Part shown: positions 15,540 to 18,885 of the stretch, one piece after another | Layout of the letters: each line of letters opens with the position of its first letter | Numbering within the stretch: the stretch's first letter is position 1 | Origin: Rhodobacter sp. SGA-6-6 | Lineage (GTDB): Bacteria; Pseudomonadota; Alphaproteobacteria; Rhodobacterales; Rhodobacteraceae | Length of the DNA: 39,023 nt | Reading direction: 5' to 3' | Assembly (NCBI RefSeq): GCF_011043545.1 | Contig: NZ_JAAKGP010000019.1 | Location: 1-39,023, forward strand | Translations under genes and position numbers: made by a program | The notes under the pieces: generated by a model | Seen by the model: only the letters and a program-made list of their open reading frames with translations | Database searches by the model: none | Told to the model about the DNA's origin: nothing

Positions 15540-15557
15540 GTTGTGGTCGCGTATCCC

Positions 15558-15653: not shown

Positions 15654-16904
15654 ATGCCAGCACCCGGAGAGAACCTGCGGATCGACCCCGCGCGGCTGTG
15701 GGACAGCCTGATGGAGATGGCGAAGATCGGCCCCGGCGTGGCCGGGGGCTGCAACCGCCAGACCCTGACCGATGCCGATGGCGAGGCGCGCCACCTCTTC
15801 GCCGGCTGGTGCCGGGCGGCGGGGATGACGATGGGCGTCGATTCCATGGGCAACATGTTCGCCACCCGGGCGGGCGAGGACCCCGGGGCGCTGCCGGTCT
15901 ACATGGGATCGCATCTCGACACCCAGCCGACGGGCGGGAAATACGACGGCGTGCTGGGGGTCCTCGGCGCGCTGGAGGTGGTGCGGACCATGAACGACAT
16001 GGGAGTGCGGACGAGGCGCCCGATCGTGGTCACCAACTGGACCAACGAGGAGGGTGCGCGCTTCGCCCCGGCGATGCTGGCCTCCGGCGTCTTCGCCGGC
16101 ATCCATACCGAGGGTTATGCGAAAGGGCGCACCGACCTCGACGGCAAGGTCTTCGGCGAGGAACTGGCGCGGATCGGCTGGGTCGGCGACGAGAAGGTCG
16201 GCGCCCGCAGGATGCACGCCATGCTGGAACTGCACATCGAGCAGGGTCCGATCCTGGAGGCCGAGGGCAAGACCATCGGCGTCGTCACCCACGGCCAGGG
16301 CCTGTGGTGGCTGGAGATCACCCTGACCGGGAAAGAGGCGCATACCGGATCGACGCCGATGAAGATGCGGGTCAACGCCGGCCTCGGCATGGCCCGGATC
16401 ACCGAGCGGGTGCACCAGATCGCCATGAGCCACCAGCCCGATGCGGTGGGGGCGGTGGGGCAGGTCAAGGTCTTCCCAAACTCGCGCAACGTGATCCCGG
16501 GCAAGGTGGTGTTCACGGTGGACATCCGCAGCCCCGAGCAGAGCAAGCTGGACGCGATGAAGGCCGAGGTGATCCGCGCCGCCCATGCGGTGGCGGCCGA
16601 ACTCGGCCTCGGCTGCAGCATCGAGGAGGTCGGGCATTTCGACCCCGTCACCTTCGATCCCGGCCTGGTGAAGATCGTCCGCGGCGCGGCCGAGAAACTG
16701 GGCCATTCCCACATGGACATCGTGAGCGGCGCCGGCCACGACGCCTGCTGGATCAACCGGGTGGCCCCCACGGTGATGGTGATGTGCCCCTGCGTGGACG
16801 GGCTGAGCCACAACGAGGCCGAGGAGATCACGCCGGACTGGGCGGCGGCGGGGACGGATGTGCTGCTTCATGCGGCGCTGGAGGTGGCGGAGGTGGTGGG
16901 GTGA
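15654..16904 (+). CDS. N-carbamoyl-beta-alanine / N-carbamoyl-amino-acid amidohydrolase (M20 family)
   Basis: This 416-residue zinc amidohydrolase of the HyuC/AllC/beta-ureidopropionase group (M20) would release ammonia and CO2 from the N-carbamoyl beta-amino acid made by dihydropyrimidinase, the last step of reductive pyrimidine breakdown. Metal ligands are visible: His87 (GSHLDTQ), Asp98 (KYDGV), Glu132-Glu133 (TNEEGARF), His194 (ELHIEQGP) and a late SGAGHDA histidine. The dimerisation domain lies at about 215-330. I chose ATG 15654 with AGGGAG upstream; ATG 15624 is possible. The stop overlaps the GTG start of the next gene. Context favours the beta-ureidopropionase role over hydantoin or allantoate substrates. 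Confidence 0.9.
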   Translation: MPAPGENLRIDPARLWDSLMEMAKIGPGVAGGCNRQTLTDADGEARHLFAGWCRAAGMTMGVDSMGNMFATRAGEDPGALPVYMGSHLDTQPTGGKYDGVLGVLGALEVVRTMNDMGVRTRRPIVVTNWTNEEGARFAPAMLASGVFAGIHTEGYAKGRTDLDGKVFGEELARIGWVGDEKVGARRMHAMLELHIEQGPILEAEGKTIGVVTHGQGLWWLEITLTGKEAHTGSTPMKMRVNAGLGMARITERVHQIAMSHQPDAVGAVGQVKVFPNSRNVIPGKVVFTVDIRSPEQSKLDAMKAEVIRAAHAVAAELGLGCSIEEVGHFDPVTFDPGLVKIVRGAAEKLGHSHMDIVSGAGHDACWINRVAPTVMVMCPCVDGLSHNEAEEITPDWAAAGTDVLLHAALEVAEVVG

Positions 16905-17437
16905 GCCTCGGGCTGCATCAGAGGATACTGGAGAGCCTGGTTCGTCAGTATGACGCACCGCTTATCCAGAACAATCTGCGAGGGTTCTATGTCGAGCTTA
17001 TGGTTGCGGCTTTGTTGGGCGACGGGTGGCGACATAATGGCTCCGATTGGGGCGCATATGATCTTGAGCATGTCAGCGGCACGAAAATCGAAGTGAAACA
17101 ATCCGCTGCGCGTCAAACCTGGTCCGGGCCGGAAACTGTGGCACGACAACCGATCTTCAGCATCCGCACCCCGAAAATTGAATGGGTGGGGACCGTCCCG
17201 ACGCCGCGGTCGGCAAGAATTGCGGATGCCTATGTGTTTGCCTGGCACGGGGAACATGGTCTGGCGGCCGATCACCGCGACATCTCGCAATGGTCGTTCT
17301 TTGTGGTGCCAACCCACAGCCTTCCTGATCAAAGAACCATCAGCCTCAATCCGCTGAGGGCGCTGGCTGCCCCTGTCGGTGCGGATCATCTCAAACATTC
17401 GGTCGAACAACTCTTCGGGCAAGGAGTGGCAGCATGA
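16901..17437 (+). CDS. Unknown protein with PD-(D/E)XK nuclease-like motif, low GC
   Basis: This 178-residue protein belongs to no family I can name. It starts at GTG 16901, overlapping the upstream stop (GTGA) with GGAGG before it, and its own TGA overlaps the hydA ATG, so it is translationally coupled on both sides. A restriction-endonuclease-like pattern is present: Glu32 in a helix (GFYVELMVAALLG), then Asp54 (GAYDLEH), then Glu64-x-Lys66-Gln67 (KIEVKQSA), matching E...D...ExK. The C-terminal half contains IADAYVFAWHGE and WSFFVVPT strands. Sampled lines are about 50-55% GC against about 75% in a sampled line of the neighbouring amidohydrolase, suggesting horizontal acquisition. Nuclease activity is inferred only. 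Confidence 0.75.
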   Translation: MSLGLHQRILESLVRQYDAPLIQNNLRGFYVELMVAALLGDGWRHNGSDWGAYDLEHVSGTKIEVKQSAARQTWSGPETVARQPIFSIRTPKIEWVGTVPTPRSARIADAYVFAWHGEHGLAADHRDISQWSFFVVPTHSLPDQRTISLNPLRALAAPVGADHLKHSVEQLFGQGVAA

Positions 17438-18885
17438 CCACCATCATCAAGAACGGCACCGTCGTTACCGCCGACCTCACCTACAAGGCCGATGTGCGTG
17501 TGGAAAACGGCGTGATCACCGAGATCGGACCGGACCTCAAGGGCGGCACCGAACTGGATGCCACCGGCTGCTACGTCATGCCCGGGGGCATCGACCCGCA
17601 TACCCATCTGGAGATGCCCTTCATGGGCACCTATTCCACCGACGATTTCGAATCCGGCACGCGGGCGGCCCTTGCGGGGGGCACCACGATGGTGGTGGAT
17701 TTCGTGCTGCCGGGGCAGGGGCAGGGGCTGATGGATGCCGCGCAGATGTGGCACAACAAGTCGACCCGGGCGAATTGCGACTACTCCTACCACATGGCCA
17801 TCACCTGGTGGGGCGGGAAGGTCTTCGACGGCATCGCCGACAGCATCAAGGCCGGCATGACCAGCTTCAAGCATTTCATGGCCTACAAGGGCGCCCTGAT
17901 GGTGAACGACGACGAGATGTTCGCCAGCTTCCGCCGGATCGGCGAACTCGGCGGCCTCGCCATGGTCCATGCCGAGAACGGCGACGTGGTGGCGGAACTG
18001 ACGGCGAAGCTGCTGGCCGAGGGCAACACCGGGCCGGAGGCCCATGCCTATTCCCGCCCGCCGCAGGTGGAGGGCGAGGCGACCAACCGCGCCATCATGA
18101 TCGCCGACATGGCCGGGGTGCCGCTTTATGTCGTCCACACCTCTTGCGAGGAAAGCCATGAGGCGATCCGCCGCGCGCGCCAGCAGGGGAAACGGGTCTG
18201 GGGCGAGCCGCTGATCCAGCACCTGACGCTGGACGAGAGCGAATATTTCCACCCCGACTGGGACCATGCCGCCCGCCGGGTGATGTCGCCGCCCTTCCGG
18301 AACAAGCGGCATCAGGACAGCCTCTGGGCCGGGCTGCAATCCGGCTCGCTCTCCGTGGTGGCCACCGACCATTGCGCCTTCACCACCGAGCAGAAGCGCT
18401 TCGGCCGCGGCGATTTCTCCAAGATCCCCAACGGAACCGGCGGGCTGGAGGACCGGATGCCGATGCTCTGGACCCATGGCGTGGGGACCGGGCGGCTGAC
18501 GCCGAACGAATTCGTCGCGGTGACCTCGACCAACATCGCCAAGATCCTGAACTGCTACCCGAAGAAGGGCGCGGTGCTGGTGGGGGCGGATGCGGACCTG
18601 GTGGTCTGGGACCCTTCGAGCGAGAAGACCATCACCGCGGGCAGCCAGCAGTCGGCCATCGACTACAACGTCTTCGAGGGGCAAAAGGTGAAGGGCCTGC
18701 CGCGGTTCACCCTGACCCGGGGCCTGGTGGCGGTGACGGAGGGCAAGGTGCAGACGCAGGAGGGCCACGGGAAATTCGTCGCGCGCGAGCCGCGCCCGGC
18801 GGTCAATCGCGCGCTGAGCCGCTGGAAGGACCTGACCGCGCCGCGGCCGGTGCAGCGGACCGGCGTGCCGGCGACGGGGGTGTGA
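17434..18885 (+). CDS. hydA: Dihydropyrimidinase (D-hydantoinase)
   Basis: This 483-residue cyclic amidohydrolase opens the dihydropyrimidine ring to an N-carbamoyl beta-amino acid. The binuclear metal site is complete: His56 and His58 (DPHTHLE), the probable carboxylated Lys152 (FMAYKG), VHAEN and VHTSC histidines, and the ATDHCAF aspartate. The length is normal for the family. The ATG overlaps the preceding stop (ATGA). In the pathway it acts between PreTA and the amidohydrolase encoded just upstream. A solo palindrome of the TTTTCGCCGAAAA family follows the stop. Confidence 0.96.
   Translation: MTTIIKNGTVVTADLTYKADVRVENGVITEIGPDLKGGTELDATGCYVMPGGIDPHTHLEMPFMGTYSTDDFESGTRAALAGGTTMVVDFVLPGQGQGLMDAAQMWHNKSTRANCDYSYHMAITWWGGKVFDGIADSIKAGMTSFKHFMAYKGALMVNDDEMFASFRRIGELGGLAMVHAENGDVVAELTAKLLAEGNTGPEAHAYSRPPQVEGEATNRAIMIADMAGVPLYVVHTSCEESHEAIRRARQQGKRVWGEPLIQHLTLDESEYFHPDWDHAARRVMSPPFRNKRHQDSLWAGLQSGSLSVVATDHCAFTTEQKRFGRGDFSKIPNGTGGLEDRMPMLWTHGVGTGRLTPNEFVAVTSTNIAKILNCYPKKGAVLVGADADLVVWDPSSEKTITAGSQQSAIDYNVFEGQKVKGLPRFTLTRGLVAVTEGKVQTQEGHGKFVAREPRPAVNRALSRWKDLTAPRPVQRTGVPATGV

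Follow-up and report, generated by a model that had tools for sequence, protein, structure and literature searches.

A lone gene of predicted PD-(D/E)XK fold, very probably acquired horizontally, lies between hyuC and hydA in Rhodobacter sp. SGA-6-6

Between the hyuC and hydA genes of Rhodobacter sp. SGA-6-6, in a stretch of 39,023 nucleotides that was analysed as a whole and is here called the window, lies a small gene, X, whose product is on balance best explained as an orphan restriction-type nuclease, a stand-alone DNA nuclease of the defence type that travels as single-gene cargo. Since the relatives of X occur singly in prophages, on plasmids, in an integron-like array and in distant bacteria, X is probably a defence nuclease that acts alone, rather than an enzyme of metabolism. 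Four results are computational: the predicted fold, a conserved set of catalytic residues, the lack of X in congeners and a transfer unit the size of one gene.

The coordinates of the features are collected in Table 1. X overlaps both of its neighbours by four bases, and the GTGA and ATGA overlaps that an earlier note on this DNA had described are exact. The TGA stop of hyuC occupies 16902-16904 and the GTG start of X begins at 16901, while the TGA stop of X (17435-17437) overlaps the ATG of hydA, which begins at 17434. The GTG start agrees with the two nearest relatives, whose alignments begin at residue 4 of X, and a GGAG at 17423-17426, within X, is a candidate ribosome site of hydA. With such overlaps, X could be translated from the operon message, most likely without a promoter of its own. 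The same note had named an amidohydrolase and a dihydropyrimidinase as the neighbours, which is confirmed by matches above cut-off to NF006769 and TIGR02033. The best model for the hyuC product is NF006769, 'allantoate amidohydrolase' (674 bits, cut-off 452), and the protein is a hydantoinase/carbamoylase-family amidase; the ATG at 15654 was assumed as its start, the longest open reading frame beginning at 15543. With regard to base composition, the GC content of X is 57.5% (50 to 62% in its nine 60-base lines), against 69.2% in hyuC and 66.9% in hydA, and at third codon positions it is 60.9% against 92.5% and 90.9%, respectively. X is also the GC minimum of the window, as every other 537-base stretch clear of it has a higher GC content. 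The contrast reported earlier (50-55% against about 75%) is thus real, but its size had been overstated (57.5% against 67-69%).

Table 1. Gene X, its neighbours and the putative catalytic codons (positions in the window).
Feature	Positions	Strand	Details
hyuC-like Zn-dependent amidase	15654..16904	+	TIGR01879 375.5 bits vs cut-off 204; NF006769 674 vs 452
Gene X	16901..17437	+	178 aa, single-domain protein of predicted PD-(D/E)XK fold, solitary cargo gene
hyuC-stop/X-start overlap, GTGA	16901..16904	+	
E32 codon, acidic residue of first core helix	16994..16996	+	DSSP helix 24-39; 99/102
D54 codon, 'PD' aspartate right before strand 55-57	17060..17062	+	102/102
E64-V65-K66 codons, (D/E)XK motif within strand 62-69	17090..17098	+	E and K 102/102
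X-stop/hydA-start overlap, ATGA	17434..17437	+	
hydA, dihydropyrimidinase	17434..18885	+	TIGR02033 592 bits vs cut-off 393
hydA 5' part, candidate import tract	17434..17550	+	first ~100-120 bases, unusually unlike sister genome

X is not a general feature of its genus or of its family. With X as the query, no match was found in any of 12 congeners, 10 of which have a hydA match, nor in 23 further genomes of the family. A profile detected a relative in 10 of 393 other genomes of the family, one copy each, and in all 10 the GC content of the gene is below that of its surroundings. Within genera the distribution is sporadic, with one carrier among six genomes in the genus of G725 and one among 21 in that of G764. 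When the junction was compared in nine congeners (G012, with a partial hydA, being omitted), the coding parts of hyuC and hydA were 81-95 bp apart with no gene between them in five, and a different gene occupied an interval of 525-564 bp in the other four. Absence from congeners, rarity in the family and low GC and GC3 all support the transfer proposed earlier, and X is very likely horizontally acquired cargo. Universal presence in the operon, which had been named as an argument against recent transfer, was not observed either: X is found in one of 13 genomes of the genus. A match to X in G053 was rejected as chance (32% over 102 residues, with an in-frame stop and without the family motif).

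The 5' end of hydA may bear a trace of the import. Its identity to the sister genome, G010, is 68% in bases 1-120 and about 90% for bases 181 to 600, and codons 1-35 are 71% identical against 85% for the whole gene. The same region also varies between congeners that lack X, codons 1-35 being 74% identical against 79% in the pair G010-G006, so an import tract at this end is suggestive only.

A second member of the family, 44% identical to X, lies between hyuC and hydA in another genus (G725), with the same GTGA overlap, and is followed by a small gene that by eye resembles a lipoprotein gene. Among five congeners of G725, three have this lipoprotein-like gene alone in the interval, one has it with another gene and one (L167) has it behind a VasI-like gene, with a duplicate of the hydA 5' end (about 27 codons) between the two. 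This duplicate, 3' of the VasI-like gene, may have been left behind when an incoming hyuC-gene-hydA fragment recombined. A tree of the family, in which one row (L163) was in the wrong frame and which was used for phylum labels only, did not resolve the kinship of the two hyuC-hydA copies. Elsewhere in the bacterial family, three members in three genera (G634, G766 and G764) adjoin a gene which we take to be EttA, and the member in G459 (L165) is flanked by genes presumably for a nucleoside-type ABC permease and for purine nucleoside phosphorylase. Across 20 genomes of a single genus (L172-L191), the 130 bases 3' of EttA, inspected by eye, show a common terminator, often a GCGGATTTGACTTCAAATCCGC-type repeat, and then divergence, with a thioesterase gene 697-1233 bases on in the 10 genomes where it is within reach.

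These contexts bear on the proposal that X could be an enzyme acting on nucleic-acid bases, or an accessory factor of pyrimidine or hydantoin metabolism. That a gene with overlapping start and stop sits between two enzyme genes of the same pathway, and does so in two genera, would fit such a role. Against it stand the absence from all 12 congeners, although 10 of them have a hydA match, the nuclease active-site residues of X, and the contexts themselves: of the 11 members in the bacterial family, X included, two lie between hyuC and hydA (G000 and G725), and in other bacteria the neighbours are mutually unrelated. A role in base metabolism is not supported and was rejected on this distribution and context, any part in the pathway being scarcely credible.

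The hyuC-hydA interval was compared in the best-scoring hydA loci of 29 further genera, a non-random choice from 214 matching genomes among 248, of which 28 were used (G485, at a contig end, being omitted). It exceeds 200 bp in 15 of the 28 genera with both genes, and among the genes in it are some of the GIY-YIG type (two by test and a further two by inspection) and one for a family 61 glycosyltransferase; five of 10 interval genes tested had no Pfam match. The control interval between hydA and the ABC ATPase gene exceeds 200 bp in 16 of 27, and since it is as variable, the idea of a special hotspot between hyuC and hydA was dropped. The operon is loose throughout, and the place of X is one among several tolerant gaps. 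The idea that every gene in the interval has low GC was likewise rejected, the mean GC of the gap minus that of hydA being -0.013 for 25 occupied intervals and +0.021 for 18 short ones. Three loci have GIY-YIG genes between hyuC and hydA (assigned by Pfam in L192 and L198 and by eye in L194). In each of them another frame is open over 141-182 codons, overlapping hyuC by GTGA at one end and hydA by ATGA at the other, as if the coupling had been kept across the insert, a pattern to be read with the caution that GC-rich DNA makes open frames likely.

The sharing of sites between genera also bears on the possibility that X spreads itself, as a free-standing homing endonuclease or by other means, cutting X-less alleles by hyuC/hydA or EttA and being copied in by repair. 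The second-best fold match of X, to the homing enzyme I-Ssp6803I, the occurrence of family genes at one place in different genera but sporadically in each (hyuC-hydA in G000 and G725; EttA in G634, G766 and G764), and a transfer unit that is the gene alone would all agree with homing. Site sharing needs no homing, however, since the hyuC-hydA interval also takes unrelated genes (GIY-YIG, glycosyltransferase, VasI-like) and the next interval is equally variable. Moreover, the genes flanking the family vary, and the prophage and integron-like settings bring their own mobility. We regard homing as unlikely.

X has no match among Pfam or NCBIfam models (E up to 1), nor in PADLOC (PADLOC-DB 2.0.0) or PHROGs (E up to 10). 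By tblastn, X matches 13 plasmid records (E to 0.01) and three phage records, two of them of the same phage (E to 0.1), in an identity range of 30-39%. As a single-sequence query it found no match in one-genome-per-species contigs, where a profile gave 220 confirmed places from 268 pattern matches; in viral sequences the profile gave 37 loci. As the scan relied on one short motif, these counts are lower bounds. According to their titles, the best 80 of the 220 places, which were taken further, come from Pseudomonadota, Actinomycetota, Bacillota, Bacteroidota, Chloroflexota, Acidobacteriota, Planctomycetota, Gemmatimonadota, Cyanobacteriota, Deinococcota and other phyla, and one is from an archaeal MAG (Methanosarcinaceae). 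The subgroup nearest X (L028-L048 and L091) includes many MAGs, whose bin names (CAR, COS, IRC, RHO, SB) presumably denote sponge metagenomes. One candidate, L005, was rejected as a relative, as the match spans 43 residues only and the open reading frame looks terminase-like by eye. A search of the open literature for six accession numbers of the family found no paper mentioning any of them.

An alignment of X with 101 relatives was built from 117 loci (the best 80 of 220 from the bacterial scan and the 37 viral ones), 16 being left out as copies, truncated or with stops (L045, L048, L067, L068, L079, L086, L109, L111, L112, L118, L120, L122, L130, L134, L140 and L144). D54, E64, K66 and Q72 are invariant in the 102 rows, and E32 is retained in all but three. 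The E32, D54, E64 and K66 pattern pointed out earlier is thus at the positions given for it and, being conserved across relatives, is beyond chance. In five of 10 relatives from the bacterial family of X, outside the 102-row alignment, QVK replaces EVK. The 'methyl-directed' PADLOC model PDLC03212 has weak matches in 27 of the 102 rows (best 2e-4, limit 0.1), X itself being unmatched. The intact catalytic set also speaks, together with the open frame and the neat start and stop overlaps, against X being a dead passenger devoid of function, which its sporadic presence would allow and which we consider very improbable.

The structure predicted by AF2 from the 102-row alignment has a mean pLDDT of 89.6 and a pTM of 0.85. 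In this model, two N-terminal helices (the first at 3-18) are followed by the strands with D54 and E64/K66 and by two C-terminal helices, and the residues have the layout of the superfamily, whose alpha-beta-beta-beta core bears an acidic residue in its first helix, a D ahead of the second strand and (D/E)XK in the third: E32 is in helix 24-39, D54 before strand 55-57 and E64/K66 in strand 62-69. In a Foldseek search of the PDB, E values were 1.3e-4 for NhoI, 2.2e-4 for I-Ssp6803I, 1e-3 for Eco15I and 2.6e-2 for PvuII; among the 50 matches listed, only the first three have a probability of 1.00. Superposition on NhoI gave a TM-score of 0.47-0.56 and an rmsd of 6.9-8.6. The best two matches among viral predicted structures (E 3-4e-4) are without names. 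At the sequence level, phmmer found no match in PDB sequences for X (at E 10) or for one QVK relative, and profile searches reached NhoI at E 0.084 and 0.16. In the former, made with X and 11 relatives, D54 and E64-x-K66 are aligned to WD and QVK of NhoI. E32 is aligned with a helix glutamate of NhoI, presumably its Glu50, an offset between the numberings being possible. The restriction-nuclease fold that the earlier note had proposed from the residue pattern is therefore upheld: the core is present in the model, the residues lie in the canonical elements and the best Foldseek matches in the PDB are to restriction and homing enzymes, so the AlphaFold and Foldseek check, in which a structure without the core would have spoken against the idea, came out in its favour. 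As far as the model goes, X almost certainly has a PD-(D/E)XK fold. With a TM-score of about 0.5 and non-significant sequence matches, its membership of the BisI family of NhoI and Eco15I is not established, and that it works like these enzymes is a fair working idea.

Family genes appear to move on their own. Two of them, in MAGs labelled Chloroflexota (L044) and Gemmatimonadales (L046), have 625 bp in common at 96.0% identity, from 56 bp before the open reading frame to 16 bp after it, with no other homology on either strand within the contigs of 4.7 and 6.3 kb; the MAG labels may be wrong, yet the differing flanks hold regardless of them. Similarly, two Peribacillus genomes (L069 and L083) have 645 bp in common at 91.9% and no other homology on either strand within 16.5 kb each. 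What is transferred is the gene by itself. In Vaginella massiliensis (Bacteroidota), three copies (L053, L067 and L068), 99-100% identical over about 0.85-0.89 kb, lie within about 31 kb, in the region at about 868-902 kb of one contig. Each unit is bounded by CGTTA at both ends and has a 3' attC-like palindromic element of ~185 bases, and further attC-like elements punctuate the region. Near one end of the array, at a distance of about 3 kb, is a gene for a tyrosine recombinase; it is the best match of the genome to an integron-integrase model, below the cut-off, with sub-threshold matches also found in 14 of 14 control genomes. The region can be read as a putative integron cassette array.

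In viral sequences, 30 non-redundant loci remained after removal of seven near-copies from the 37. A recombinase gene lies within two open reading frames of the family gene in 14 of them, 13 downstream and on the same strand, although these are not 14 independent events, as many related gut phages are included. The most frequent neighbour families are Resolvase, Phage_integrase, HTH and CI-repressor, with HTH_3 in 14 and Phage_CI_repr in seven of the 107 neighbouring open reading frames scanned (of 109, L140 being left out). In phage Brigit, for instance, the family gene lies between an HTH gene and that of a large serine recombinase. This is the lysogeny region, where genes that a resident prophage expresses are commonly found. 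The proximity to recombinases is what would be expected if X were a non-defence helper of mobile elements in DNA processing, such as a junction resolvase or a recombination or repair nuclease, and weak structural matches to phage resolvases (E 0.06 and about 0.43) point the same way. The best PDB matches, however, are restriction and homing enzymes, and the family is also found away from evident mobile-element genes, as X is between hyuC and hydA; such a helper role seems rather improbable.

With regard to bacterial loci, the 80 best of 220 were considered without the near-copies L042, L067, L068 and L086, and 145 neighbouring proteins were scanned (147 minus two very long open reading frames). 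No protein family occurs in more than two of the 145. A survey for defence islands had been suggested, and it gave no PADLOC enrichment beside family genes: 73 families were matched from the 145 near proteins and 141 from 109 proteins at least 4.5 kb away (E 1e-10), a rough comparison because families instead of distinct proteins were counted and the open reading frame calls were crude. On a Priestia plasmid the family gene is found amid genes for Vsr, HNH, a cytosine methylase and an MspI-type enzyme, and on a Cellulosimicrobium plasmid one restriction gene adjoins it and a second is about 4 kb distant; the other plasmid contexts examined had no restriction surroundings. Of the transferred defence protein first put forward, the transfer thus stands, and defence is plausible but unproven, with the prophage and integron-like settings and a nearest fold match to restriction enzymes that depend on modification in its favour and the PADLOC neighbours against it.

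In four mycobacterial loci (L055, L061, L066 and L073), a gene for 162-205 residues shares four bases with the start of the family gene and is included in the DNA common to these loci, a group to which L007 also belongs; on a Mycobacterium gordonae plasmid, the gene at the corresponding position has 81-85% identity with it. Judging from this arrangement, the mycobacterial members are possibly a two-gene form. This co-shared overlapping gene is what suggests that X might be a nuclease that acts as a toxin or in abortive infection and has a partner gene in some lineages. No partner was seen at the other bacterial loci, where the neighbour clusters consist of phage lysogeny genes or of nearly identical copies of a single locus, nor in the window, and this explanation is judged quite improbable.

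If X is an orphan restriction-type nuclease, it would belong to a thinly spread family of small single-domain proteins that moves via prophages, plasmids, an integron-like array and chromosomal gene gaps, and would have been inserted between hyuC and hydA in this way. The protein would dimerise through its first helix and, as an orphan without a methylase, make metal-dependent cuts in incoming double-stranded DNA, possibly modified, as the sensor-less BisI enzymes do by analogy. Its cleavage would protect the host or a resident prophage, and it would take no part in pyrimidine breakdown. BisI enzymes characteristically cleave multiply methylated GCNGC, in dependence on 5mC and with an (H/R)(V/I/T/M) methyl-binding pair. 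That the action of X depends on DNA modification is a possibility drawn from this analogy, and is put forward with reserve. More broadly, it may be tentatively suggested that these proteins form an undescribed family of restriction nucleases free of methylase and sensor, found across many phyla, in prophages, on plasmids and in at least one archaeal MAG, spread as single genes and expressed by start-to-stop stitching into operons. If so, a protein family in which X matches no Pfam, NCBIfam, PHROGs or PADLOC model would be a widespread single-gene defence, and a clean case of lone accessory genes gaining expression inside housekeeping operons. Since the enzymes nearest in fold recognise methylated cytosine although they have no reader domain, the family would also provide new enzymes to try for modified-base recognition.

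Among known systems, the type II restriction endonuclease PvuII is a fold neighbour of X; PvuII works together with a methylase, whereas neither gene adjoining X encodes one. The second-nearest fold is that of I-Ssp6803I, a PD-(D/E)XK homing endonuclease that is intron-encoded and has a fixed target, unlike X, which is free-standing and has kin at many unrelated sites. Integrons are described as stores of small anti-phage cassettes, including reduced type II and IV restriction genes (PMC12409362); the three Vaginella copies are cassette-like units, whereas no such unit was noticed by eye at X in the window. Hotspots of horizontal transfer between core genes occur without mobile elements, as set out in Oliveira 2017 (PMC5635113), and the site of X is like them in having differing genes at one place between conserved genes, but here the adjacent interval is equally variable. 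The nearest solved fold is that of the BisI family (NhoI and Eco15I), of which PMC11347163 states that the nearest canonical relative of NhoI is PvuII, that changes of active-site residues in the catalytic domain of Eco15I abolished activity and that a separate sensor domain is lacking. The active site of the family is QXK (QVK in NhoI, QIK in Eco15I), against EVK in X and most of its relatives, and the sequence similarity of X to it is not significant (no phmmer match; the profile E values given above). Notwithstanding, NhoI as described there has the same order of elements as the X model, with the core preceded by two helices and followed by two at the C-terminus, and X (one domain of 178 residues, TM about 0.5) is likewise without a sensor domain and an orphan (PMC11347163).
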